From Bifidobacteriaceae bacterium (GTDB lineage Bacteria > Actinomycetota > Actinomycetes > Actinomycetales > WQXJ01): DNA of 52,729 nucleotides. The translations under genes were made by a program, and so were the position numbers. The stretch's first letter is position 1. Each line of letters opens with the position of its first letter. The notes under the pieces were generated by a model. That model made no database searches. It saw only the letters and a program-made list of their open reading frames with translations, and was not told where the DNA came from. The DNA is taken from the NCBI GenBank assembly GCA_031281585.1, contig JAITFE010000083.1, forward strand, positions 1-52,729, in the 5' to 3' direction. Shown here in pieces: positions 25,680 through 37,186 of this stretch.

Positions 25680-27302
25680 TTAGGCGGCTACGGTCCGGCC
25701 GGCCGCGAGCATCACCCGGCGGTCGCATTGCGCGGCCTCTTGAGGGTAATGAGTGGTGACCAGGACACCCGCGCCGTCTTCGGCGTTGGCCCGCAGGGCT
25801 TTCCACAGCCGCGCCCGCGCCAACGGGTCCATGCCGGAACTCGGCTCGTCCAGGATGAGCAGCTCCGGGACGTGCTGAGACGCCGCCAGGTAGGCCAGCA
25901 GCCGCCGCACCCCGAGCGGCAGGCGTCCCACGGGTGTCGCGCCCAACTCGGCCGCGAATTCGGCGGCGGCCGGGCTCACCGCCGCGCCGTGAACGCGGGC
26001 GGCGAAGAGGAGATTGTCGCGGGCAGAGAGTGACGGGTAAAGGCCCAGGCCTTGGGCGACGTAGCCGAGTCGCCGCCGCGATTCGAGCGTCGGCTTGGCC
26101 CCGAACAGCTCGCAGGACCCGCTGGTCGGGACCTCGATCCCCAGAATTATGCGCATCAGCGTGGTCTTGCCCGCGCCGTTGCCGCCCACCAGCCCAACGA
26201 CTTCGCCCCGGCCGACGCTCAAAGAGACGCCGCTCAGCGCCGTCACGCTCCCGTAGACGCGGGTGACGTTGTCCGCGCGGATTGCGGGTTCGGGGCGCGC
26301 CGGGGCCGCCTCGGCCGGTGCGGTCCCGGCGGCACGCGGGCCCGCACGCACGGCGGCCGCCGAAGCGCTGAGGGCGGCGGGCGCCCGGCGCCCAGAGGCG
26401 CGCTCTGCGGCAAGCAGCAAGGCGACACTCGCGTTTTCCAGGTCTGGCGCGACGGGGATGAAACCGGTCGGCTGGTCGCTCAGGGGACCCGGCGCCCACA
26501 GGTACGTCGCCCGGCCGCGCCGCCATGACCACGGCCCGGCCGCAGAGCCTGTTTCGCCGCCCTTCGGCGCGAGCGCCGAAGCCCCGGCGCCCTCGCCCGC
26601 ATCCGTGTCGGCAGGCTGGTCACCGCACGGGGCGCCGGTTGGCGCCGAACGCCACAAGCGGCCGGGCATTTGCGCGGTCACCTGGCTCGGCGTGCCGACG
26701 GCCAGGGTCTTGCCGGCGTCAAGGAGGAAGACCTGGTCGGCGCGCTCGGCCTCGTCGAGGTAGGTGGTCGCCAAGATGACGGTCGCGCCCTCGGCCGCCG
26801 CCTGGGCGATCATCTCCCAAAGCTCGCCGCGGCTGGCTTGGTCGACCCCGGTGGTGGGCTCGTCCAACAGCACCAAGCCGGGCCTGTGCAGGGTGGCCAG
26901 CGCGAAGCCCAACTTGCGCCGCATGCCGCCGGACAAGCGCGCGGCGACGCGGTCACGGGCGTCCTCCAGCCCGGCGCGTTCCAACAATTCGTCAGCGCGG
27001 GCGCGCGCCTGGGCGCCCGGCAAACCGTGAACCCGGCTGACAAACTCGACGTTCTCCCGGACCGAGAGGTTTAGCCAGACGCCGCCGTCCGCGCTTTGGT
27101 AGCCGATCTCGCGGCGGTCGGCCGGGGGCGGCAAAGCGGGCGAGAAAGGCGCCAGGCCGGCCAGCGCGCGCAGCAGCGACGATTTGCCGCCGCCGTCGCC
27201 GCCGACCAGCGCCGTTATGCGTCCGGGCGGGAACGACCCGCTGAGGCCGTCCACCGCCACAGTGGCTCCGAACCGGACCGAGGCCCCGGCCAGCGTGATC
27301 AT
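25680..27302 (-). CDS. ABC exporter ATPase with two fused nucleotide-binding domains (YbhF-like)
   Basis: 540 residues with two ABC ATPase domains. The first (about 1-225) has an unusual Walker A GGDGGGKSS, signature LSGGMRRKL and Walker B LVLLDEPTTGVD. The second (about 325-540) has GGNGAGKTT, a weaker signature (LPLGVRRLL) and LLILDEPSSGMD. A roughly 100-residue Ala/Pro/Gly-rich linker joins them. This layout is that of YbhF-type ATPases, which energise drug or lipid export with ABC-2 permeases. Its ATG overlaps the permease stop by one base (TGATG), so the two are co-translated. The degenerate second signature suggests one weak ATP site. Confidence 0.88.
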   Translation of the reverse strand: MITLAGASVRFGATVAVDGLSGSFPPGRITALVGGDGGGKSSLLRALAGLAPFSPALPPPADRREIGYQSADGGVWLNLSVRENVEFVSRVHGLPGAQARARADELLERAGLEDARDRVAARLSGGMRRKLGFALATLHRPGLVLLDEPTTGVDQASRGELWEMIAQAAAEGATVILATTYLDEAERADQVFLLDAGKTLAVGTPSQVTAQMPGRLWRSAPTGAPCGDQPADTDAGEGAGASALAPKGGETGSAAGPWSWRRGRATYLWAPGPLSDQPTGFIPVAPDLENASVALLLAAERASGRRAPAALSASAAAVRAGPRAAGTAPAEAAPARPEPAIRADNVTRVYGSVTALSGVSLSVGRGEVVGLVGGNGAGKTTLMRIILGIEVPTSGSCELFGAKPTLESRRRLGYVAQGLGLYPSLSARDNLLFAARVHGAAVSPAAAEFAAELGATPVGRLPLGVRRLLAYLAASQHVPELLILDEPSSGMDPLARARLWKALRANAEDGAGVLVTTHYPQEAAQCDRRVMLAAGRTVAA

Positions 27303-28501
27303 CAGCGGGCGCCCCCGTGGGTCAACGCGAACCGCATCCGGGCGGTGGCTGCGCCGAACACGACCACAGCCATGCCGACCAGGATCACGGCGGGCGGCCA
27401 AAGCGAGCCGAGGGTCGCGTCCCGCAGCATGACGCCCACGGCGATCTCGCGGAACCAGGTCAACGGCAACACGTAGCCGATCCAGCGCACGCCCAGCGGC
27501 ATCAGATCCAGCGGGAAGATCAGCCCCGACAGCAACACCTGTGGAACCAAGAGCATGATGGCCATTTGGATGGCCTGGGCGGCGTTTTGCGACACCGAGG
27601 AGATCAGCACGCCAACGCCCAACGCCGCGAAGCAGAACACCACGGCTGTGGCGCCGTAAAGCCACAGGCTGCCGGTGAACGGCACGCCGAACAGGCCGAC
27701 CCCGATGCACGTCACCACCACCATGTCCGCGAGAGCCAAGACGAAATACGGCACGATCTTTCCCAGGATGATGACGCTGGGCCGCAGCGGCATGACCGCC
27801 AGTTGCTCAAGGGTGCCCGTCTCGCGTTCGCGGACCAGGCCGATGCTGGTGATCAACGTGCCGATGAACATCAACACCATGCCAGTCAGCCCCGGCACTA
27901 TCACCCAGGAGGTCTTGAGGTCGGGGTTGAACAACACCGCCACCAGCCGGTCCGCGTCGAGGTCCGGCGGGGCGAATTGGGCCGGGTCGAAAGAGGCCAA
28001 GGCGCCCCTTTGGGACAGCGCTTGGACCAGTTGTTCTTGGGCCGCCGTCATGCGGTCGCGCGAGTCCTCCGCCGCCAGGCGGGCAAACGTCGCCTGGGCC
28101 GCCTGTGCGCTGAACAGGGCCGAGCCGTCCGCGTAGGCCCGCATGCGGTCCGTCAGTGGCGCCGCCGGGTCGGCCTCCGGCAGGGCCACGATCACCACGG
28201 CGGCCCGCTGGTCCCGCAGCATGTCACGGGCGGCCAGTTCCAATGAGGCCTGGGTGGCCTGCGCCCCCGAAGGCTCCACCGCCACCACGTCGATCGCCTC
28301 GCGCGCGGTCTGATACGCCTCGATGTCCTCGGCGAGGGCCGCCGCCGCCGGGCCGGTCACAACGACGGAGACCCGCTTGACGGAGAAGTTGGCCGCGTAG
28401 CCGAAAACGGTCAGCATCACAATCGGCAACACCACCAGCATGGCGAAAGTGCGTTTGTCCCGCGCCAGTTCGCGGAACTCCTTGACGATCAACGCGCGCA
28501 T
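27302..28501 (-). CDS. ABC-2 type permease (YbhR/YbhS-like)
   Basis: 399 residues: a first membrane helix near residues 20-37 (TFAMLVVLPIVMLTVFGYA), a long outside loop of about 150 residues, then five or six helices in the C-terminal half with the ABC-2 signature VRERETGTLEQLAVMPLRP. This is the membrane half of a YbhFSR-type exporter; one permease gene is present, so it probably works as a homodimer. There is no ribosome site; TAGGTT lies 6 bases before ATG, which fits a leaderless mRNA. The gene is divergent from a TetR regulator. Confidence 0.88.
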   Translation of the reverse strand: MRALIVKEFRELARDKRTFAMLVVLPIVMLTVFGYAANFSVKRVSVVVTGPAAAALAEDIEAYQTAREAIDVVAVEPSGAQATQASLELAARDMLRDQRAAVVIVALPEADPAAPLTDRMRAYADGSALFSAQAAQATFARLAAEDSRDRMTAAQEQLVQALSQRGALASFDPAQFAPPDLDADRLVAVLFNPDLKTSWVIVPGLTGMVLMFIGTLITSIGLVRERETGTLEQLAVMPLRPSVIILGKIVPYFVLALADMVVVTCIGVGLFGVPFTGSLWLYGATAVVFCFAALGVGVLISSVSQNAAQAIQMAIMLLVPQVLLSGLIFPLDLMPLGVRWIGYVLPLTWFREIAVGVMLRDATLGSLWPPAVILVGMAVVVFGAATARMRFALTHGGAR

Positions 28502-28518
28502 TTGTGTAACCTACCATT

Positions 28519-28538
28519 GTTTCATCACTTGACGAAAC
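28519..28538. promoter_or_regulatory. Probable TetR operator
   Basis: A 20-base inverted repeat with arms GTTTCATCA and TGACGAAAC (8 of 9 pairs) and a 2-base centre lies 17 bases upstream of the permease start and about 90 before the tetR start. It is where a TetR dimer would block the exporter promoter. Confidence 0.55.
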
Positions 28539-28628
28539 CCCGCCCGGCGCCGCTGTTTCCCCACCGGCGGAAATCACGGCGGGTTAGGATCGACGGGGCA
28601 AGGCCGCATGAGATTGGAGGCGCCCACC

Positions 28629-29291
28629 ATGAACGGCAGCGATGGCCGCGGGGCTGGCCGCCGGGGGCCACGCCCCACCGAAACCGCCTGGTCCGAGCGG
28701 ATTCTCCAGGCCGCGCGGGCCCAGTTCGGCGAGCGCGGCTACCAGGCCGCCACCGTGCGCGGGATAGCGCGCGCCGCCGGGGTGGACCCGAAGCTGGTCC
28801 ACTACTACTTTGGGGCCAAGGAGGAGCTTTTCGACGCCGCGATCACGCAGGCGATCCGCGAGCGCGGGCAAACCCCCATTCTGGAGCACCTGGCCTCCCG
28901 CGCCGAAGGCGCCCCAGACGCGGGCGTGGGCGCCCGCTCGGTCAGGGCGATCCTGACCGCGCTGGAAGACGAGCGCCTGGGCCCGGCCTTCCTTGGACTG
29001 GTCCGGAACCTTGGCACCCACGAGGAGTCGCGCCGCGTCTTGGTCCGGTTCGTGGCCAACCAGATCATCGGCGCGATCGCGCCGCGCCTGGCCGGCCCGG
29101 ACTCCGAAGCCCGGATCGCCTTGGCGGGCTCCCATGTGCTGGGAATTGTGATGGCGCGGTACGTGCTCAGGGTTGAGCCTCTGACCAGCCTGTCCGTTAG
29201 CCAGATCGCGGAGGCGGCCGGTCCGGCCCTGGACCGCTACCTGTTCGCCGCCGACTTGCCGCTGAGCCCTCCCGCGCCGCCCCGCCCCTGA
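28629..29291 (+). CDS. TetR-family transcription repressor
   Basis: A 220-residue repressor. The helix-turn-helix region (about 18-64) runs AWSERILQAARAQFGERGYQ, then VRGIARAAGVDPKLVHYYFG, a clear TetR_N pattern, followed by a C-terminal ligand-binding domain of the TetR_C type. ATG 28629 is chosen because GGAGG lies 8 bases upstream; an upstream ATG at 28608 has none. It is divergent from the ABC exporter genes, and the intergenic palindrome supports control of that pair. The inducer is unknown. Confidence 0.88.
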   Translation: MNGSDGRGAGRRGPRPTETAWSERILQAARAQFGERGYQAATVRGIARAAGVDPKLVHYYFGAKEELFDAAITQAIRERGQTPILEHLASRAEGAPDAGVGARSVRAILTALEDERLGPAFLGLVRNLGTHEESRRVLVRFVANQIIGAIAPRLAGPDSEARIALAGSHVLGIVMARYVLRVEPLTSLSVSQIAEAAGPALDRYLFAADLPLSPPAPPRP

Positions 29292-29299
29292 TATAGTCA
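29288..29299 (+). promoter_or_regulatory. Shared promoter motif CTGATATAGTCA, copy 1
   Basis: The same 12 bases recur at 31149-31160. Here the motif contains a -10-like TATAGT (29292-29297) 31 bases before the Nudix regulator start; the -35 side is poor. The sequence after it (GCTATCA at 29307) partly mirrors it. It may be the binding site of the Nudix regulator itself. Confidence 0.45.
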
Positions 29300-29327
29300 G
29301 AGCGAAGCTATCAACGCGGAGGCGAAA

Positions 29328-30056
29328 ATGACCGAAGCCTACGACCCCAGCCAGTTTCCACCCTTCGCCGTCACCGTGGACCTGGCCGTTTTCACCCTGC
29401 GCAGCGGCCGTCTGCACGTGCTGCTCATTGAGCGCGGCGAGGAGCCGTTCCTCGGCCGGTTGGCGCTCCCAGGCGGATTCTTGCGGCCCGACGAGGACGC
29501 CGGGCAGGCCGCCCGCCGGGAACTCACGGAGGAGACCGGCCTGGCGCTTGGCTCCCCGTATCACTTGGAACAGCTCCGCACCTATTCGGGCGTCGCCCGC
29601 GACCCCCGGATGCGGGTGGTCACCGTCGCCTACGTGGCGTTCGCGCCCGACCTGCCGGACCCGGTCGCCGCCGCCGACGCGCGCGCCGCCCGCTGGGTCG
29701 ACTTGGCGGAGGCCCAAGCCGCCCACTTGGCGTTCGACCACGGCCAGATCCTGGACGATGCCGTGGAGCGGGTCCGCGCCAAACTCGAGTACACCACGAT
29801 CGCCACCAGGTTCCTCCCCCGTCAGTTCGCGATCGGCCAGTTGCGGGCCGTCTACCAGGCCGTTTGGGGCGAAGCCGTTGAGCTTCAGAATTTCCGCCGC
29901 AAGGTGCTCTCCGTGCCGGGCTTCATCGAGCCCGTCGGCCAGGTCCGCACCGGCGTGCCCGGCCCCCCGGCGCGCCTATACAAGGCCGGCCCGGCCACCG
30001 CGATCGACCCTCCGTTCTCGCGCGCACGCGCACCGGAGCCCCGGAAACGGCCGTGA
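29328..30056 (+). CDS. Nudix-domain transcription regulator, NrtR type
   Basis: 242 residues. Residues 12-150 are a Nudix domain with an intact Nudix box at 50-72 (G5xE7xREUxEExGU: GFLRPDE, then RRELTEETGL). Residues about 158-215 form a winged helix (QFAIGQLRAVYQAVWG, then NFRRKVLSVPGF) as in NrtR regulators, which repress NAD-related genes and are released by ADP-ribose-type ligands. The intact box means hydrolase activity may persist. A good ribosome site (GGAGG) precedes ATG. The stop overlaps the next start as GTGA, so it is co-translated with the J-domain gene. Known NrtR function is from the family; the ligand here is inferred. Confidence 0.85.
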   Translation: MTEAYDPSQFPPFAVTVDLAVFTLRSGRLHVLLIERGEEPFLGRLALPGGFLRPDEDAGQAARRELTEETGLALGSPYHLEQLRTYSGVARDPRMRVVTVAYVAFAPDLPDPVAAADARAARWVDLAEAQAAHLAFDHGQILDDAVERVRAKLEYTTIATRFLPRQFAIGQLRAVYQAVWGEAVELQNFRRKVLSVPGFIEPVGQVRTGVPGPPARLYKAGPATAIDPPFSRARAPEPRKRP

Positions 30057-31069
30057 CCGGGGTGGCGGGCAGCCCCGCCCACGCCGCGAGGACGGCCCCG
30101 GAGAGGGTCCCAGCGGTGGCGGAGATTCTGGCCGCGGCCGAATGGCGCGATCTCGGTCTGCCCCACGACCCCTCGGCGTTGCGGCGCGCCCAGCGCCACG
30201 TCCATCCCGACCTGTGCGCCGACCCGTCCGCGGGAGCAGCCTTCGCGCGCCTGCGCGACCTCTACCAGCAACCCGAGTTCCGCCTGCGGGTCGCCGACGG
30301 CGCCCGCGAGGAGCCCGGCCGCCTCCGGTGGACCCTCAGGCCCGGCTTCGGGGATTTGGCCTTGGCCGCCGACCAGGCCCACGCCGCCCTGGAACACGCC
30401 CGCGAGCGCCGCTTCTTCACGCGCCGCGTGGTCGGGGAAGGCGGTGGGGACGCCCGCGTCATCGAATACCGGACCGCCCCAGCGCACGATGCCGTCCCGC
30501 CCGCCCGGCCGTCAGGCGCCGGCACGCCCGGAGTCGGGTCGCCCGGCCGCCCCGGCGACTCGTCCCGGCCCCATCCAACTGACGGCGGGCGAGGCGCCGC
30601 CGAGCAATGGTGGTTCTTGGCCGAGTTCGGGCCGTTGGACACTCGCACTTCGATCTGGGTGGCCAGGCGCCTGGCCGCCGCGATCATCCAAGCCGCCCAA
30701 GTGGGATGGGCCCACACCGACGTCAATCCGATGACTGTGGTGATCGAACCCGCCCAGCACGGCCTGCGTCTTGACGGCTGGTGGCTCGGCCGGCCGATTG
30801 GCGAACGCCTCACGGTTCGCCCGGCCGCTCCCACCCCGCCGCGCTACCTGGGGGGCGCCCCCGCAGACCCGCTGCTCGCCGTGGCGCAAGCCGCCGCCAT
30901 GCTGGCCGGCGGAGGCGCGACCGGGGACTTGCGCGATCTGTTCGCGCGGAACGCCCTGCGGCCCGAAACGCCGGAGCGGTTCTTCGAGGAGGTGCTGGAC
31001 TGCTCGCGCCGCCAAGTCGGCGCGGACCGCTGGCACCCGCTGGCCCGCCCGGCCACGCCGCCCATCTGA
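30053..31069 (+). CDS. J-domain protein with kinase-like C-terminal domain
   Basis: 338 residues of unknown function. Residues about 20-75 are J-domain-like: helices around the HPD motif at 51-53 (RHVHPDLCADPS, then FARLRDLYQQ). After a Pro/Gly-rich linker (145-182) the C-terminal part resembles a protein-kinase core: GWAHTDVNPMTVVIE at 219-232 reads as a catalytic loop (HTD for HRD), and LRLDGWWLG at 238-246 could stand for the DFG region. The loop asparagine is replaced by threonine and no clear glycine loop is seen, so it may be a pseudokinase. It overlaps the Nudix gene by 4 bases. J-domains recruit Hsp70; the target is not known. Confidence 0.65.
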   Translation: MTGVAGSPAHAARTAPERVPAVAEILAAAEWRDLGLPHDPSALRRAQRHVHPDLCADPSAGAAFARLRDLYQQPEFRLRVADGAREEPGRLRWTLRPGFGDLALAADQAHAALEHARERRFFTRRVVGEGGGDARVIEYRTAPAHDAVPPARPSGAGTPGVGSPGRPGDSSRPHPTDGGRGAAEQWWFLAEFGPLDTRTSIWVARRLAAAIIQAAQVGWAHTDVNPMTVVIEPAQHGLRLDGWWLGRPIGERLTVRPAAPTPPRYLGGAPADPLLAVAQAAAMLAGGGATGDLRDLFARNALRPETPERFFEEVLDCSRRQVGADRWHPLARPATPPI

Positions 31070-31130
31070 AGCCCCACAGGGAAAAACCGGGCCCGCGATT
31101 GCCACGAATGAACGGGCGGTCGGACCGCAG

Positions 31131-31158
31131 TTGACAATCCGCGCGGCACTGATATAGT
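31131..31158 (+). promoter_or_regulatory. Strong promoter of the VWA gene (TTGACA, 16-base spacer, TATAGT)
   Basis: A perfect -35 (31131-31136) and a near-consensus -10 (31153-31158) lie 16 bases apart, 50 bases before the VWA gene. The -10 is part of the 12-base motif CTGATATAGTCA (31149-31160) shared with the Nudix gene promoter. Confidence 0.65.
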
Positions 31159-31181
31159 CATAGTGACTCAATAAAGAGTCA
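31149..31181 (+). promoter_or_regulatory. Probable operator: shared motif copy 2 plus inverted repeat
   Basis: CTGATATAGTCA (31149-31160) is followed by a perfect inverted repeat TGACTC / GAGTCA with a 6-base centre at 31164-31181. Three related half-sites (TAGTCA, TGACTC, GAGTCA) thus cover the -10 and start region of the VWA promoter, a good position for a repressor, most simply the Nudix regulator encoded upstream. Confidence 0.5.
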
Positions 31182-31207
31182 TCACATTTCTACCAAGGAG
31201 GATCATC

Positions 31208-32140
31208 ATGGGAAGCGGATCATGGAGCCACGCGACCTACGCCGCCGCGACCGGGGTCCGGGTCGCCTCCGGAACGGCCTTCGGCTACGACCGCCACGCG
31301 CGGGCGACCGGGGTCGCCAAGGCGCACGAGGCGCTGGACCCCACCAAACTGAACGCCGCGGGCAAGAACGTCCGCGAGGCGTTCGACAACCCCGACCACC
31401 CGACCTCTCTGCCGATCGTGGTCGGCTTCGACTCGACCGGCTCGATGGGCTCGGTGCCGCGCGTGGTCCAGCACAAACTCGCCACCCTGTTCGCCCTGTT
31501 GATCGACAAGGGATACGCCACCGACCCGCAAATAGCCATCGCCACCTACGGTGACGCGACCTGCGACTACGTTCCGCTGCAGATCAGCCAGTTCGAATCC
31601 GACAACCGCATTGACGAAAACCTGGACCGGCTCTACCTGGAGGGCGGCGGCGGCGGCAACGACGGCGAGACCAGCCAATTGCTGCTCTACTACCTGGCCC
31701 ACCACACCGAGACCGACGCTTGGCGCAAGCGGGGCAAGAAAGGCTACGTCTTCCTGATCGCGGACGAGAAGCAAATCCCGATCGCCCCCGGACACGTGCG
31801 CGAATTCATCGGCGACGGCCAGCCCCTGGGCGACCTCAGCTTTGAGGGGATCGCCGCCGACGTCGCGAAGACCTGGGAAATCAGAATCCTGCTGATCAAC
31901 AACGCGGCCGCGTTCACGCAAGGGTCGCAGGCGTTCTACGGGGCGCTCTTCGGCCGCGACAACGTGGTCTTGGTGCAAGACCCGGACGCGATCGCGGAGA
32001 CCATCGCCGCGATCATCGGCTTCGAGGAGGGACGCGACGCCGCCGCGATCACGGCCGACCTCACGGCCGCCGCCGGCAAAGAGGTGGCGCTGCGGGTTGG
32101 CCAGGCCCTGCGCCGGCCGGTGGGGGCCGGGCTGAGGTGA
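31208..32140 (+). CDS. VWA-domain (TerY/Ro60-like) protein
   Basis: 310 residues, no signal peptide or membrane segment, so cytoplasmic. A Gly/Ala-rich N-terminus (GSGSWSHATYAAATGVRVA) leads to a von Willebrand A fold: first strand IVVGF, then the MIDAS motif DSTGS at 75-79, later strands with QIAIATYGD and YVFLIADE. The metal site appears intact apart from weaker later motifs, so metal-dependent ligand binding is expected. AAGGAGG lies 6 bases before ATG, among the best ribosome sites in the window. Family members act as scaffolds in stress systems; here it lies between the J-domain/kinase-like gene and a PurA-like gene. Confidence 0.8.
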   Translation: MGSGSWSHATYAAATGVRVASGTAFGYDRHARATGVAKAHEALDPTKLNAAGKNVREAFDNPDHPTSLPIVVGFDSTGSMGSVPRVVQHKLATLFALLIDKGYATDPQIAIATYGDATCDYVPLQISQFESDNRIDENLDRLYLEGGGGGNDGETSQLLLYYLAHHTETDAWRKRGKKGYVFLIADEKQIPIAPGHVREFIGDGQPLGDLSFEGIAADVAKTWEIRILLINNAAAFTQGSQAFYGALFGRDNVVLVQDPDAIAETIAAIIGFEEGRDAAAITADLTAAAGKEVALRVGQALRRPVGAGLR

Positions 32141-32187
32141 CCGGACGGCATCGTCTATAAGGAAACCGCCGACAGGAGGGACGCGAG

Positions 32188-33342
32188 ATGAACGGCCAGA
32201 CCCCGAGCGCCTTGATTGTGGTCGGGCTGGGGTGGGGCGACGAGGGCAAGGGCGCGACGGTGGACGCCCTCGCCGCCCGCCACCCGGCGGACCGGGTGGT
32301 CCGCTTCAACGGCGGCCAGCAGGCCGCGCACAACGTGGTGGCGGGCAAGGTCCACCACACGTTCGCCAACTTCGGTTCGGCGGGGCTGTCGGGGGTCCCG
32401 ACTTGGGTGGCGGGCGACTGCACGGTCGAGCCGAGCGCCGCCTGGGCGGAACGGCTGGCTTTGCGGAGCCTGGGCGTGGACCCCGACCTGTTCGTGGTCG
32501 AGGACTGCCTGGTCACGACGGCGCTTCACGTCGCGGCGAACCGCGCTCGCGAGGCGGCGCGGGGAGCCGGGCGGCACGGCTCGACCGGACGCGGCTTCGG
32601 CGAGACGATCGCCTACGGGCTGGACCAGCCCGAATGGGCGCCCCGTGCCCGCGACCTGGCCGAGCCGGCCGCCTTCCTCGCGAAAGGCGAGCGCCTGCTG
32701 GCGCACTACGGCGAGCAGGGCGTGTTGGACCCGGAAGGGTTCGACCGGGCGGAACTCCGGGCCGCCCTGGAGCGGCAGTGCGCCGACGCGGCGGCGGGCC
32801 TGCGGCTGGTCAGCGCCGACCGACTGCTGGAGGAGATCGGCGCCGGCCGCACCATCTTCGAGGGCGCCCAGGGGTTCTGGCTCGACCAGAACTTCGGCTT
32901 CCAGCCCCACACCACGTGGTCCACCACCACGCCCGCGCCCGCCCGCCGGCTCTGCCGCCAGGCCGGGATCGGGGACGTGACCGCGATCGGCTGCGTCCGC
33001 ACGTACGCGACCCGGCACGGCGCCGGCCCGCTGCCCGCCGAGGGCGCCATGCCGCCCGGCCGCGTCCCCTCAGACGATCCGGGCGCGCGGACCTACCGCC
33101 CGCCGGAGCCCCACAACGGCGACGCCGCCTTCGCCGGCGTCTTCCGGGTCGCGCCCCACGACCCGGCGTACCTCCGGGCGGCGATCGACCAGACGATGGT
33201 CGACGTCCTCGCGGTCAACCACCTTGACGTTTACGACCATTTCGCCACCACCAGCGGGCCCATGCCGCTGGATTCGTTCGGTCCGGTGTTGGTGCGGGCC
33301 GCCGGACCCGACCGGGCGGACCGCCAGTTCACCGGGATCTGA
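32188..33342 (+). CDS. Divergent, short adenylosuccinate-synthetase-like enzyme
   Basis: 384 residues versus about 430 for PurA. Kept: the P-loop WGDEGKG at 16-22 with the catalytic aspartate, the histidine in GGQQAAH (H48; PurA has GGHNAGH), STGRGFG at 132-138, FEGAQG at 224-229, HGAGPLP at 277-283 and a KLD-like HLDVYD at 345. Changed or lost: the TGRxRRxGWLD segment that binds aspartate and IMP is replaced by PEPHNGDAAFAGVFRV, and the C-terminal 80 residues are shortened. It probably ligates an amino acid to a nucleotide with GTP, but the substrate likely differs from IMP plus aspartate. AGGAGG precedes ATG. It lies 47 bases after the VWA gene and is probably co-transcribed. Confidence 0.8.
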   Translation: MNGQTPSALIVVGLGWGDEGKGATVDALAARHPADRVVRFNGGQQAAHNVVAGKVHHTFANFGSAGLSGVPTWVAGDCTVEPSAAWAERLALRSLGVDPDLFVVEDCLVTTALHVAANRAREAARGAGRHGSTGRGFGETIAYGLDQPEWAPRARDLAEPAAFLAKGERLLAHYGEQGVLDPEGFDRAELRAALERQCADAAAGLRLVSADRLLEEIGAGRTIFEGAQGFWLDQNFGFQPHTTWSTTTPAPARRLCRQAGIGDVTAIGCVRTYATRHGAGPLPAEGAMPPGRVPSDDPGARTYRPPEPHNGDAAFAGVFRVAPHDPAYLRAAIDQTMVDVLAVNHLDVYDHFATTSGPMPLDSFGPVLVRAAGPDRADRQFTGI

Positions 33343-33394: not shown

Positions 33395-33496
33395 CATGCA
33401 CAGTCGCCACGCACCCAGGGCGGCTTCCACACAACACCAGTGGCAACAAGCTGGCTCCGTTTCCGGAGGCGGCCCTTCCGAGAACAGGGCGAGCGC

Positions 33497-34546
33497 ATGG
33501 TCAAGTGGTACCTCCGGCACCGCGGACTGCTCAACTACATCATTCGCCGGCTCGGAATTGCCGTTTTGCTCGCGTTCGGCATCACGATTATCACCTTTCT
33601 GCTGGCCAACCTTGTGCCGAACGACCCGGTGGTCGCCGCGCTTGGCGAGGTGGCCGCCTCAAAACCGGATCTGGTCGCCGCGTTCCGCGCCCAATACGGC
33701 CTGGACAAGCCCCTTTACGTGCAGTACTGGATCTACCTGACGAACTTGCTGCACGGCGACCTGGGCACCAGTTACATAACGCGGCACGCCGTGGCCGAGG
33801 ACCTTTCCACCAACTTCCCGGCCACGCTTGAATTGGCGCTTTTCACCATTGTCAGCGCCGCCGTCATTGGCCTGTTCTTCGGCGTCCTGGCGGCCTACCG
33901 CAAGGGCAAGGCCTCCGACCAGGTGCTGCGGGTCGTGTCGCTGGTCGGCATCTCGGTGCCCAGCTTCTGGCTCGCGATCCTCTCTTTGTACCTCTTCTAC
34001 TTCCGCCTGCGCTGGACCCCCGGCTCCGGCCGGCTCTCCCCGGGCGCTCCCCCGCCCAAGCGCATCACCGGCCTGTACACCGTGGACGCCCTGGTGACCG
34101 GCGACTTCGAAACCTTCGTGGACGCCGCGGGGCACCTGATCCTGCCGGTGTTCGTCCTCACCCTCTACGCCGTGGGCCTGCTCACCCGCTTCACCCGCAC
34201 CACCGTCCTCGAAGTCCTGGACAAGGACTACGTCCACGCCGCGACGGCCAAGGGCCTGCCGCTGCGCACGGTCTTGTTCAAGTACGTGCTCCGGGGCGCC
34301 ATGATCCCCATCCTCACGATCATCGGCGTGGTGTTCGGCGGCCTGCTGTCCGGCACGGTCCTGATCGAGTCGATCTTCTCCCGCCCGGGACTCGGCTCCT
34401 ACGCTTTCAGGGCCGCCATGAGCCTGGACCTGGTGGCGGTCATGGGCACCGGCCTGGTGATCGGCCTGATCTTCATCATGACCAATTTCCTGGTCGACCT
34501 GGCCTACGGCCTGATCGACCCGCGCGTGCGGGTGGGCCAGCGATGA
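33497..34546 (+). CDS. Peptide ABC importer permease (DppB/OppB family)
   Basis: 349 residues with six membrane helices; the first (about 15-36) is IAVLLAFGITIITFLLANLV. The cytoplasmic EAA loop that docks on the ATPase is visible as HAATAKGLPLRTVLFKYVL near 250. The start is set at ATG 33497 (MVKWYLRHRG), where family similarity begins; the open frame continues upstream into non-homologous sequence. It is first of five plus-strand genes encoding a complete dipeptide/oligopeptide-type importer. Its stop overlaps the next start as ATGA. Confidence 0.9.
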   Translation: MVKWYLRHRGLLNYIIRRLGIAVLLAFGITIITFLLANLVPNDPVVAALGEVAASKPDLVAAFRAQYGLDKPLYVQYWIYLTNLLHGDLGTSYITRHAVAEDLSTNFPATLELALFTIVSAAVIGLFFGVLAAYRKGKASDQVLRVVSLVGISVPSFWLAILSLYLFYFRLRWTPGSGRLSPGAPPPKRITGLYTVDALVTGDFETFVDAAGHLILPVFVLTLYAVGLLTRFTRTTVLEVLDKDYVHAATAKGLPLRTVLFKYVLRGAMIPILTIIGVVFGGLLSGTVLIESIFSRPGLGSYAFRAAMSLDLVAVMGTGLVIGLIFIMTNFLVDLAYGLIDPRVRVGQR

Positions 34547-35484
34547 GCGGCCCGAAGGCGGCCCCGGCCCCCGGCGCGGCACCCGCCCCATCGCCCGCCA
34601 AGGCGCCGGGGCGCCAAAACGGCCGCGCGGGCGCCAGGTTCGCCCGCCGGGTCGCAGGGCGCCGCCGCATCCCCCAGGCCTTCCGCACGCCCCTCGGCGT
34701 CCTGGCGGTCGTGATTGCGGCCGCCTGGATCCTGACCGCGATCCTCGCCCCCTGGCTGGCCCCCCACGACCCGGTCGCGCAAGACTTCGCCCCCTTCCTG
34801 CCGCCCAGCGGCGAGCACTGGTTCGGCACCGACGAGACGGGCCGGGACTACTTCTCGCGCGTGATCGCGGGCTCGCGCATCTCGATTTCCCTGACCTTCC
34901 TCCTGGTGGCCATCTCGATCGCGGTCGGCTCCTTCTTCGGGATAGTGGCGGGGTTCTTCGGCCGTTGGCTGGACGAGGTCATCATGCGGTTCGCCGACCT
35001 TTTCATGAGCTTCCCCACGGTCATCCTGGCCATGATCACGGCCGCCGCGCTGGGCCCGTCGCTTTTCAACTCCGTGCTCGCGGCGGTGGTGGTCTCCTGG
35101 CCGCTGTACGCGCGTTTGACGCGCTCGCTGGTCCTCAACCTGCGCCAGGCCGACTACGTCTCCGCCGCCCGCCTCCTGGGCCAGTCCCCCGGCCGCGTCA
35201 TGAGCCGCGACGTCCTGCCCAACATTGTCAGCCCCACGCTCATCATGGGCACCTTGGACCTCGGGACCGCCACCCTCCTCCTGTCCGGGCTGTCCTTCCT
35301 GGGCCTGGGGGCCAAACCGCCCACGCCCGAGTGGGGCTCAATGGTGAGCTTCGCCATCCACAGCTTCGACAAGTGGTGGCTGGGGCTGTTCCCGGGGCTG
35401 GCCATCTTCACCGTGGTGGTGGCCTTCAACATAATCGGCGACCTGCTGCGCGACCAACTGGACCCGGAGGTGGCCAAACTGTGA
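34543..35484 (+). CDS. Peptide ABC importer permease (DppC/OppC family)
   Basis: 313 residues. An Ala/Pro/Lys-rich cytoplasmic tail (1-45) is followed by six membrane helices and the EAA loop SAARLLGQSPGRVMSRDVLPN near 205-225. The N-terminal motif HWFGTDETGRDYFSRVIAGSR at about 89-109 is the hallmark of DppC-type permeases. It pairs with the upstream DppB-like subunit; both ends overlap neighbours by 4 bases, so the subunits are made together. Confidence 0.92.
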   Translation: MSGPKAAPAPGAAPAPSPAKAPGRQNGRAGARFARRVAGRRRIPQAFRTPLGVLAVVIAAAWILTAILAPWLAPHDPVAQDFAPFLPPSGEHWFGTDETGRDYFSRVIAGSRISISLTFLLVAISIAVGSFFGIVAGFFGRWLDEVIMRFADLFMSFPTVILAMITAAALGPSLFNSVLAAVVVSWPLYARLTRSLVLNLRQADYVSAARLLGQSPGRVMSRDVLPNIVSPTLIMGTLDLGTATLLLSGLSFLGLGAKPPTPEWGSMVSFAIHSFDKWWLGLFPGLAIFTVVVAFNIIGDLLRDQLDPEVAKL

Positions 35485-36317
35485 CCGTCCTCGAGATCAG
35501 GAGTCTGGGGCTGGTGATCCACTCCGAAGGCCGCGACATCCCCATCCTCGAAGGCGTGAGCCTCGCCATCCAGCAGGGCCAGATTTTGGGCCTGGCCGGC
35601 GAATCGGGCTCCGGCAAGACCATGACCGGGCTGAGCGTCATGGGGCTGGAGCCGAAGAACTCCACGTTGACCGGCGCGATCACGGTTGACGGCGCCGTCA
35701 TCACGGGGCCGGACCGGAAACGGCGGCTGGCGGAGTTGCGCGGCTCGCACATGGCGATGGTGTTCCAGGACCCGACCACGTCTCTCCACCCCATGCTGAC
35801 GATCGAGTCGCAATTGACCGACCACGCGCGCCTCCACCTGGGCTTGGACCGGGCCGCCGCCCGCGACCGCGCCGCCGAACTGCTCCGGCGGGTCGGGATT
35901 GACCGCGCCGGCTCGCTCAAGCGCTACCCCCACGAGTTCTCCGGCGGCCAGCGCCAACGCATCGCCATCGCCTCCGCCCTCATGTGCTCCCCGAAGCTCC
36001 TGATAGCCGACGAGGTCACAACCGCCCTTGACGTGACCGTCCAAGCCGGGATTCTGCGCCTGATCCGGGGCCTGGCCGAGGAACTCGGCCTGGCGGTCCT
36101 CTTCATCAGCCACGACCTGGGCGTGATCTCCGCGCTGGCGGACGACGTGGCCGTGATGCAACGCGGCGCCATCGTGGAGGCCGGCCCCAGGCTCCAGGTT
36201 TTCACCGAGCCCGAACACGCCTACACCAAAGCTTTGCTGGCGTCGCTGCCAGGCGCCAAGGGAGGGCTCGCGTCGCGCGAGGACCTTTATCGGATCGACC
36301 TGAAAAAGGACTTGTGA
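35481..36317 (+). CDS. Peptide ABC importer ATPase (DppD/OppD family)
   Basis: 278 residues with a single ABC ATPase domain: Walker A GESGSGKT near 41-48, Q-loop VFQDPTTSLHP, signature FSGGQRQRI, Walker B LLIADEVTTALD and the switch histidine in FISHDLG. In Walker B the usual ADEPT proline is valine (ADEVT), a small change. The GTG start overlaps the DppC-like stop as GTGA. The C-terminal oligopeptide/dipeptide extension (EPEHAYTKALLASLPG) is present. Confidence 0.92.
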   Translation: MTVLEIRSLGLVIHSEGRDIPILEGVSLAIQQGQILGLAGESGSGKTMTGLSVMGLEPKNSTLTGAITVDGAVITGPDRKRRLAELRGSHMAMVFQDPTTSLHPMLTIESQLTDHARLHLGLDRAAARDRAAELLRRVGIDRAGSLKRYPHEFSGGQRQRIAIASALMCSPKLLIADEVTTALDVTVQAGILRLIRGLAEELGLAVLFISHDLGVISALADDVAVMQRGAIVEAGPRLQVFTEPEHAYTKALLASLPGAKGGLASREDLYRIDLKKDL

Positions 36318-37186
36318 TGGCCGAGCCGCTGCTGAAAGTCCGCGACCTGCGCGTCACCTACCCCGGCCCGCCTCCGGTCAAAGCCGTCCGGGGCATCTCC
36401 TTCGACCTTTACCCGGGCGAGGTCCTGGGCCTTGTCGGCGAGTCCGGCTGCGGCAAGTCGACCGTCGCCCGCGCGGTCAGCGGCCTGCTCAAGCCCTCGC
36501 ACGGCATCGTCGAATTCGGCGGCAACCTGGTCAAACCGCTCACCATGCGCCGACGGCCCATTGGCCACACCGGCGTCCAGATGGTCTTCCAAGACCCGGC
36601 CAGTTCCCTCAACCCGCGCCGCCGGGTGGGCCGTCAGGTCGCCGACGGGCTCGCCACCGCCGCCCGCCGCCACGCCGACGATGCCGTCAAGGCGCCCGGC
36701 TTGGACCGCCACCCGGCCGACGATGCCGTCCAGGCCGTCACGGCGGCCGGAACGGGACGCTCTGCTTTGACGCCCGCCGAATGGCTGGAACGCGTCGGCC
36801 TGGAGGCGGCCGACGCGTCCCGTTTCCCCCGTTCCTTCTCCGGCGGACAACGCCAGCGCATAGCGATCGCCCGGGCCTTGGCCGCGGAGCCGAGCCTGCT
36901 GATCGCCGACGAGCCGATCTCCTCGCTGGACGCCTCCACGCAGGCGCGCGTGGCCGGAATCATGTGCCAACTGGCCGCCGAGGAGGATGTGGCCCTGCTC
37001 TTCATCTCCCACGACCTGTCGATTGTGCGCCTGATCGCAGACCGCCTGTTGGTGATGGTTGACGGCCAAATCGTTGAAGAGGGCCCCACAGACCGAATCT
37101 GGGACGCCCCGGAGCACCCGTACACCCGGCGGCTCCTCGCCTCCATCCCGAAACCCGACGGCCTGGGAATCCTCCCAGGCGGCTAA
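36317..37186 (+). CDS. Peptide ABC importer ATPase (DppF/OppF family)
   Basis: 289 residues. Walker A GESGCGKST, Q-loop MVFQDPASSLNPRR, signature FSGGQRQRI, Walker B LLIADEPISSLD and FISHDLS are all intact. ATG 36317 is chosen (AAGGA 6 bases upstream); it overlaps the previous stop by one base. Between the Q-loop and the signature, at about 113-153, is an unusual Ala/Asp-rich linker containing PADDAVQA- and ADDAVKA-type segments. These are encoded by two close copies of a 12-base palindromic motif (36677 and 36719), which suggests that a small insertion has lengthened this region. Confidence 0.92.
   Translation: MAEPLLKVRDLRVTYPGPPPVKAVRGISFDLYPGEVLGLVGESGCGKSTVARAVSGLLKPSHGIVEFGGNLVKPLTMRRRPIGHTGVQMVFQDPASSLNPRRRVGRQVADGLATAARRHADDAVKAPGLDRHPADDAVQAVTAAGTGRSALTPAEWLERVGLEAADASRFPRSFSGGQRQRIAIARALAAEPSLLIADEPISSLDASTQARVAGIMCQLAAEEDVALLFISHDLSIVRLIADRLLVMVDGQIVEEGPTDRIWDAPEHPYTRRLLASIPKPDGLGILPGG

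Follow-up and report, generated by a model that had tools for sequence, protein, structure and literature searches.

A conserved four-gene system of bacteria and phages combining an NrtR-type Nudix regulator, a J-domain-pseudokinase, a VWA protein and a PurA-like enzyme

The stretch of DNA analyzed here (the window, 52,729 nucleotides from a Bifidobacteriaceae bacterium) carries four neighboring genes that an earlier note had proposed to be a single undescribed system, raising the question of whether these genes belong together and, if so, what they do. As the note had described, all four genes are present on the plus strand, the first two overlap by 4 bases (GTGA), and strong ribosome sites precede the VWA gene (AAGGAGG) and the PurA-like gene (AGGAGGG). 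The genes and regulatory elements are as follows.

29289 to 29313, plus strand: palindromic operator 1, TGATATAGTC-agagc-GAAGCTATCA, 14 bases before the regulator gene (sequence)
29328 to 30056, plus strand: NrtR-type Nudix transcription regulator (Pfam NUDIX and NrtR_WHD)
30053 to 31069, plus strand: J-domain-pseudokinase (HPD at residues 51 to 53; model matches J-PKAc chimeras)
31131 to 31158, plus strand: promoter of the VWA-PurA-like unit, with TTGACA at 31131 to 31136, a 16-base spacer and TATAGT at 31153 to 31158 (sequence)
31150 to 31181, plus strand: operator 2, with half-site TGATATAGTC at 31150 to 31159, centre atagt and then GACTCAATA (sequence)
31208 to 32140, plus strand: VWA protein (MIDAS DxTGS at residues 75 to 79; VWA fold in the model)
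32188 to 33342, plus strand: PurA-like GTP-dependent ligase paralogue (Adenylsucc_synt, 1e-44; monophyletic; rebuilt aspartate loop and IMP-phosphate pocket)

The NrtR-type Nudix regulator, the J-domain-pseudokinase, the VWA protein and the PurA-like enzyme form one conserved system, as had been proposed. Starting from the VWA protein, the analysis reached 93 loci, of which 61 encoded all four families and 90 the PurA-like gene; the reverse search, from the PurA-like gene, found a VWA gene on 75 of 80 viral contigs. The VWA and PurA-like genes are separated by a median of 1 bp, gene order and strand differ among the loci, and no VWA, J-domain-pseudokinase or NrtR-type gene was found at 44 normal purA loci. 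The co-occurrence check suggested in the note thus clearly returned neither a set confined to one genome nor a VWA/PurA-like pair surrounded only by unrelated neighbors. The hosts include Actinobacteria, Proteobacteria, Chloroflexi and one Clostridia bacterium, and the patchy distribution extends to plasmids and phages; the window copy itself lies in ordinary chromosomal surroundings. A scan of genome contigs with the single VWA sequence of the window gave no match, whereas an alignment-based scan gave at least 550, so the early appearance of rarity reflected the lower sensitivity of the former. Sampling 396 genomes from the phylum gave two to three matches, which makes the system widespread yet sparse. 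No fifth core gene recurred within 6 kb of the cellular copies, where recurring neighbors mostly reflected genus-level synteny, and no effector nuclease recurred near them. The kinship with ter systems suggested in the note found no support in this count of neighbor families. Identity with a known anti-phage system was rejected, as PADLOC returned weak partial matches only. The searchable literature yielded no description of the four-gene set, which is apparently undescribed, with an earlier mention elsewhere possible at what we judge a rather small chance; related but different work on ADP-ribosylglycohydrolase (ARG) systems, jumbo-phage NAD genes and PurZ did surface.

The label of NrtR-type Nudix protein was borne out by the window regulator, in which both the Nudix domain (3e-19, 69.6 bits) and the NrtR winged helix (9e-13, 48.6 bits) exceeded the Pfam cut-offs and the Nudix box GFLRPDEDAGQAARRELTEETGL is complete; its match to NCBIfam NtrR (6e-40) fell below the cut-off, and its PDB relatives are AraR 5bs6 and 3gz5. 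By sequence, a palindromic operator at its own operon also agrees with NrtR-type membership, although more weakly in the window than in relatives. There, operator 1 overlaps an extended -10 element (TGaTATAGT, 29289 to 29297), and its arms are imperfect, pairing at 7 of 10 positions around a 5-base centre, while many relatives pair at 8 to 10 of 10 positions at the same place. Among 90 promoters of relatives, 23 contained arms of 10 with a 5-base centre and at least 9 of 10 positions paired, against 0.2 expected, and the palindrome occurred exactly once per genome in all 10 relatives' genomes. The shared 12-base promoter motif of the earlier note, CTGATATAGTCA, does occur at two sites (29288 to 29299 and 31149 to 31160), with no further site in the window at up to two mismatches, but it is more than a promoter element, as it forms the left half of an operator palindrome; a good -35 element (TTGACA) accompanies the second site only. 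Operator 2 also contains a second, perfect inverted repeat, TGACTC-aataaa-GAGTCA (31164 to 31181). The core TGATATAGTC was found only at operators 1 and 2 in the whole 4-Mb genome, which by itself is weak proof because the same pattern read backwards likewise has two genome sites. Going by these sequence signals, the NrtR-type protein seems dedicated to its own operon, on which it would act at a single site.

For the VWA protein, the sequence match to Pfam VWA was weak (0.13), but the label given in the note holds at the level of fold, since the model (pLDDT 93.5) best matched integrin beta-I domains (Z 16, residues 66 to 276, rmsd 2.9 over 186 residues) and the MIDAS DxTxS with its distant Asp is present. 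Across the family the MIDAS is intact, with D75, T77, S79 and D186 essentially invariant, and D116, E130, G148, E154, D186 and E187 are invariant. The J-domain/kinase-like label likewise stood and could be refined to pseudokinase. The window protein had no Pfam match despite its HPD motif, while its model best matched J-PKAc chimeras in Foldseek; in the family, the H, P and D are kept in 106, 107 and 109 of 117 members, respectively, and Pfam DnaJ was found in 5 of 10. An active Ser/Thr protein kinase was rejected despite the kinase fold, as the HRD Asp is lost in 112 of 117 members (kept in 5; HTD in the window copy) and the DFG region is replaced by xGW/xDW, with an Asp at the DFG position in about 60 of 117. 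The J-domain-pseudokinase seems dispensable in some lineages, because eight genomes lacking a local copy contained no full-length relative elsewhere.

The PurA-like protein is related to PurA over its full length and forms a monophyletic clade, and in all 15 host genomes tested it is a second paralogue alongside a normal PurA. Its GTP/phosphoryl-transfer core (GDEGKG, His41, Gln224, Asp333) is present: D13, K16, H41, E221 and Q224 occur in all 170 members and D333 in 164. We take the residue roles from E. coli PurA to be catalytic for Asp13 and His41, aspartate binding for Arg303 and Arg305, and binding of the IMP 5'-phosphate for Asn38, Thr129 and Arg143. R303 is deleted in 170/170, and the aspartate loop TTGRxR is replaced (T300 by W/Y/F, T301 by Q in 160/170, R305 by F/W/L). 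In the IMP-phosphate pocket, N38 is replaced by Q in 169/170 and R143 is found in 7/170, whereas T129 is mostly C or V but remains T in the window; V273 is H in 169/170. Because Arg303 is gone, the aspartate loop replaced and the IMP-phosphate pocket remodelled, the enzyme is, judging from these residues, probably neither an adenylosuccinate synthase nor PurZ. The PurA equivalog was also rejected on its best score of 128 bits, far under the NCBIfam cut-off of 402. For PurZ, the profile score was 28.5 bits against a cut-off of 300, and Asp13 is invariant, whereas PurZ has Ser in its place (PMC12884076). Databases name members of this clade adenylosuccinate synthetase and, in phages, 2-aminooxy adenylosuccinate synthetase, so that a large clade of PurA relatives bears the former name though its aspartate-binding loop is gone. 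These features also bear on whether the enzyme is a backup adenylosuccinate synthase, giving AMP under inhibition of the normal enzyme (e.g., by ppGpp) with chaperone-like partners helping; the full-length relation, the universal GTP-site residues with D13 and H41, and the presumed benefit to phages in need of purines speak for it, but the lost phosphate- and aspartate-site residues, the low equivalog score and the lack of a VWA partner at normal purA loci make it rather improbable. The window copy of the system may be diverging, given its poor J-domain-pseudokinase N-lobe and the F-A-G that it has in place of the W/Y/F-Q-G loop.

The connection to NAD or ADP-ribose drawn in the earlier note gains new, independent support from genomic context, since NAMPT, NAPRT, NADAR or ADP-ribosylglycohydrolase genes adjoin, or sit inside, a minority of copies. 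NAMPT lies within 6.2 kb in four of the five NAMPT-bearing viral records (16 records examined; P about 2e-5). One locus (L136) carries, on one strand, genes for NrtR, VWA, an NMNAT-like/Nudix protein, NAMPT, PurA-like and the J-domain-pseudokinase, and the Clostridia genome carries, also on one strand, NADAR, ARG, AMMECR1-LigB, radical SAM, NrtR, NAPRT, PurA-like, J-domain-pseudokinase and VWA; NADAR is near the VWA gene at two other loci as well (L015 and L011). No NAD gene was found within 6 kb of most cellular copies, the window copy included. ARG was rejected as a core component, being within 6 kb at 3 of 88 cellular loci, with none found in the window's genome.

In our reading, held with about even confidence, the system is a dedicated NAD+/ADP-ribose-linked response module; the repression, its ligand, the chemistry of the enzyme, what the partners do and what the system is for are inferred in this account. 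The NrtR-type protein would repress its own operon alone via the palindromic operator until an ADP-ribose-like ligand rises. Against this choice of ligand, AraR and similar NrtR relatives respond to different ligands. Also counting against the module are the missing NAD genes around most cellular copies, the imperfect operator 1 of the window and the possibly diverging state of the window copy. Derepression would yield the core pair of VWA protein and PurA-fold enzyme, the latter using GTP to activate a 6-oxo purine (nucleoside, nucleotide or dinucleotide) other than plain IMP and coupling it to a non-aspartate amine. The VWA protein may be an obligate metal-dependent partner holding or supplying the second substrate, and the J-domain-pseudokinase may bring in DnaK for assembling or loading the pair. 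The pair would thereby make a modified purine nucleotide or conjugate for use in NAD-linked stress and phage conflict; the module is also found in large phages. A bolder version, which we regard as a long shot, makes the N-terminal Gly of the VWA protein the nucleophile in place of aspartate, giving a protein-purine conjugate via the purine 6-position. It is suggested by the near-invariant Met-Gly start (Met 163/168, Gly 165/168), from which Met removal would bare the Gly amine, and by the loss of the arginines that bind the aspartate carboxylates; the exceptions to Met-Gly mostly involve alternative or doubtful gene starts. If true, such a conjugate would be a new kind of protein modification.

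Alternatively, this could be a module of phage origin, since retained by bacteria, for NAD+ recovery or counter-defence; its enzyme would mend a damaged adenine dinucleotide of the NAD or ADP-ribose type, or restore its amino group, using ammonia or some other small amine. The lost aspartate-binding arginines, the remade 5'-phosphate pocket and the NAMPT and NMNAT-like genes adjacent to the enzyme gene in some large phages would fit, as would a tree that has at least eight virus/cell changes and places two viral contigs as sister to the window clade (support 1.0); but most phage copies, e.g., those of cluster C mycobacteriophages, lack nearby NAD genes, and we consider this reading improbable. 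Somewhat less remote, though still unlikely, is a host defence or stress system akin to Nudix-regulated ADP-ribosylglycohydrolase systems, off by default and induced by released ADP-ribose, in which the VWA and J-domain proteins bind damaged or ADP-ribosylated clients and the PurA-like protein is a processing enzyme or effector. A similar regulator and VWA protein in described systems (PMC9503650), sporadic ARG and NADAR neighbors and the patchy, plasmid- and phage-borne distribution favor it, while the weak PADLOC matches, the scarcity of ARG, the lack of a recurring effector nuclease, the commonness of the system in phages themselves and the ordinary surroundings of the window copy weigh against it. 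Returning to the response module, if its NAD/ADP-ribose link holds, it would represent a new enzyme activity within NAD-centred bacteria-phage conflict. At least several hundred bacterial species carry the system, as do many large phages. Its reaction can be tested directly, with Rhodococcus and the cluster C mycobacteriophages that infect the laboratory host M. smegmatis as sources of the genes.

Several known systems resemble this one in part. The Ter and VMAP/MoxR conflict systems share a VWA protein and sometimes a kinase-like partner, but their enzyme and regulator differ, and genes of the Ter, MoxR or VMAP kind were not seen to recur here. The phage NAD+ reconstitution pathway NARP2 consists of NAMPT and NMNAT, and in some giant phages NAMPT and NMNAT-like genes occur in the same gene cluster as the present system, whereas the pathway has no VWA, PurA-like or J-domain-pseudokinase component. 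NrtR- and AraR-type regulators share the Nudix domain, winged helix and palindromic operator but govern NAD or arabinose genes, while the regulator here would act at a single site on its own operon. PurA shares the fold, the GTP site and the catalytic Asp13 and His41 and differs in its aspartate loop and IMP-phosphate pocket, the PurA-like enzyme being a second copy beside it. PurZ and PurZ0 of phage 2-aminoadenine synthesis (PMC12884076) are likewise phage-borne PurA paralogues with changed substrates, but their partners differ. The ARG-centred systems have a Nudix-type regulator and VWA or other chaperones, the VWA protein being predicted to act as a Mg-dependent peptide-binding chaperone (Iyer et al. 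2022, PMC9503650); they share with the present system an NrtR-type Nudix regulator, a VWA protein, the ADP-ribose theme and occurrence in actinobacteria and proteobacteria, but their core is an ADP-ribosylglycohydrolase, whereas here ARG is sporadic and a PurA-like ligase is accompanied by an obligate VWA protein and a J-domain-pseudokinase.

The four plus-strand genes placed in the window by the earlier note proved to be real and correctly positioned in the window sequence, as follows:

29328-30056, plus strand: NrtR-type Nudix regulator
30053-31069, plus strand: J-domain-pseudokinase protein (J-pseudokinase)
31208-32140, plus strand: VWA protein
32188-33342, plus strand: PurA-like enzyme

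Pfam searches assigned NUDIX and NrtR winged-helix domains to the first gene and Adenylsucc_synt to the fourth, while the third yielded a weak VWA match and the second none; the identities of these latter two proteins were settled by structure models. In the VWA model (pLDDT 93.5), residues 66-276 resembled integrin beta-I VWA domains (Z 16), with ∼64 extra residues N-terminal to this fold, and across the family the MIDAS is intact, D116, E130, E154, D186, and E187 are additional invariant polar positions, and the Met-Gly start is nearly invariant. For the second protein (pLDDT 81.5), the top three PDB matches were structures of J domain-protein kinase A fusions, and its family profile matched Ser/Thr kinases; among 117 J-pseudokinases, HPD was retained in ∼107 and the HRD aspartate in just 5.

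A search with the VWA alignment recovered >550 relatives in one-genome-per-species data. Of the 93 loci examined, 90 had the PurA-like gene next to VWA and 61 held the complete set of four families, which supports the earlier proposal of one system. The gene order was NrtR-JK-VWA-PurA (JK, J-pseudokinase) in 31 loci, JK-VWA-PurA-NrtR in 25, and VWA-PurA-NrtR in 15, with NrtR divergent in Alphaproteobacteria and shuffled orders in one Clostridia and one Atopobiaceae genome; such constant membership under changing order is strong evidence of joint function. Conversely, of 80 viral contigs identified through their PurA-like protein, 75 carried VWA and 50 the J-pseudokinase, the PurA-like gene lying close to the contig end in each of the five contigs without VWA, and none of the partner genes was present at 44 normal purA loci. 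The J-pseudokinase is considered accessory, because a search of eight genomes (Nocardia, Hamadaea, Catenuloplanes, and Kutzneria) without a local copy detected no full-length relative, two controls being detected. In 11 viral contigs where it was not found, a 112-amino-acid unknown protein lies immediately upstream of VWA (e.g., L148, 3797-4132) and might be its stand-in.

Considering the active site, 170 PurA-like members were aligned with Escherichia coli PurA (E. coli numbering). Residues for GTP and phosphoryl transfer (Asp13, Lys16, His41, Glu221, and Gln224) were present in all 170 and Asp333 in 164, while Arg303 was deleted in all, Thr300-Thr301 was replaced by aromatic-Gln, Arg305 by a hydrophobic residue, and Asn38 and Val273 by Gln and His, respectively (169/170 each), with Arg143 mostly lost. 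In E. coli PurA, the altered positions bind aspartate and IMP. On these residues, the simplest reading would be an enzyme that activates a 6-oxo purine at the expense of GTP, with an amine other than aspartate and a nucleotide other than IMP. In a tree that included 41 normal PurA sequences, the family formed a single clade (support 0.845) on a long branch (1.33), and a normal PurA was also present in 15 of 15 host genomes tested; in Micromonospora rosaria (contig 58, 16840-27815) it lies ∼9 kb from the PurA-like gene. Identification as PurZ was rejected, since PurZ has Ser at position 13 (PMC12884076), where Asp is invariant here. That paper counts 481 phage PurA homologues, 147 of them phage PurZ, and the remainder probably includes the present clade.

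In a minority of copies, the neighborhood points to NAD and ADP-ribose metabolism. NAMPT-family genes were nearby in five viral loci. In one of these, a 417-kb giant-phage contig (L136, 889-6395), VWA and PurA-like flank an NMNAT-like/Nudix gene (Pfam support for the Nudix part alone) and NAMPT; NrtR precedes this block and a J-pseudokinase match follows it. NrtR through PurA-like share one strand, and NADAR lies further downstream. In L098 and L099, genes were found whose match to a cytidylyltransferase-like (NMNAT-type) domain scores close to the Pfam threshold. When 16 viral records were searched whole, NAMPT occurred in 5, and in 4 of these no more than 6.2 kb separated it from PurA-like (P about 2e-5, an optimistic value as three of the records were already known to carry NAMPT when the set was picked). 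Of all loci seen, the one with the richest NAD context is that of Clostridia bacterium MS499-75 (L248, contig 43, 2768-13413), where NADAR, ADP-ribosylglycohydrolase (ARG), AMMECR1-LigB, radical SAM, NrtR, NAPRT, PurA-like, J-pseudokinase, and VWA genes occupy one strand, NAPRT overlapping NrtR by 4 bases. NADAR was also near VWA in a relative of the window copy (L015) and a Vibrio phage (L011), and farther off in L099 and L136. Three cellular loci had ARG at a distance of ≤6 kb, and two more had it somewhat farther away. Because most copies lack such neighbors, these genes are guides to the pathway rather than core parts. A role of the four genes in an NAD/ADP-ribose response is a plausible proposal.

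Regarding regulation, the 12-base motif that the earlier note read as a shared promoter element does stand at both window promoters (29288-29299 and 31149-31160), yet it is the left half of an operator overlapping the promoter, not a promoter motif alone. The operator is a palindrome with a 5-base center:

GTTTTAGTC-N5-GACTAAAAC: Nocardia and Rhodococcus promoters
GTTTGAGTC-N5-GACTCAAAC: promoters of Lentzea and kin
GATAGGGTC-N5-GACCCTATC: Antribacter promoter

Arm pairs matching at ≥9 of 10 positions were found in 23 of 90 relatives' promoters, against 0.2 expected from shuffles. The Nocardia-type palindrome occurred exactly once per genome in 10 of 10 whole genomes (one mismatch allowed), and those positions that were compared by hand lay directly upstream of this operon, so the regulator, a Nudix protein that would bind this predicted operator, looks like a local switch. 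A complete Nudix box, as in the window, was present in 23 of 84 regulators, indicating that hydrolase activity is no family requirement.

The module was found on plasmids of Rhodococcus, Tsukamurella, Agrobacterium, Acetobacter, and Variovorax, and VWA in ∼190 Mycobacterium phages as well as Rhizobium and Vibrio phages, adjoining PurA-like in those phages examined. At least eight viral-cellular switches were required on the PurA-like tree, in which the window and Antribacter copies were sister to two viral contigs (support 1.0). A TROVE/Ro60 RNA-binding protein lies downstream of the viral module in L096 (8106-9614), L097, L155, and L011, L096 and L097 being sister to the window's own copy, and in six viral contigs (L128, 6741-7541, and five others) PurA-like is followed by an R2K-type ATP-grasp gene, to which an ATP-dependent DNA ligase is added downstream in L128. 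The window system lies between a TetR/ABC-2 exporter cluster (25680-29291) and an oligopeptide-type ABC transporter operon (33480-37186), in ordinary chromosomal surroundings where no mobile element was noticed. Its PurA-like loop has F-A-G in place of W-Q-G, and the N-lobe of its pseudokinase is poor; hence, Rhodococcus or Micromonospora copies are better to study.

In the searchable part of the literature, no described counterpart of the VWA-PurA-like core was found. The closest described are the ARG systems with a Nudix regulator and VWA (PMC9503650), which have two component types in common with this system but differ from it in their core enzyme.
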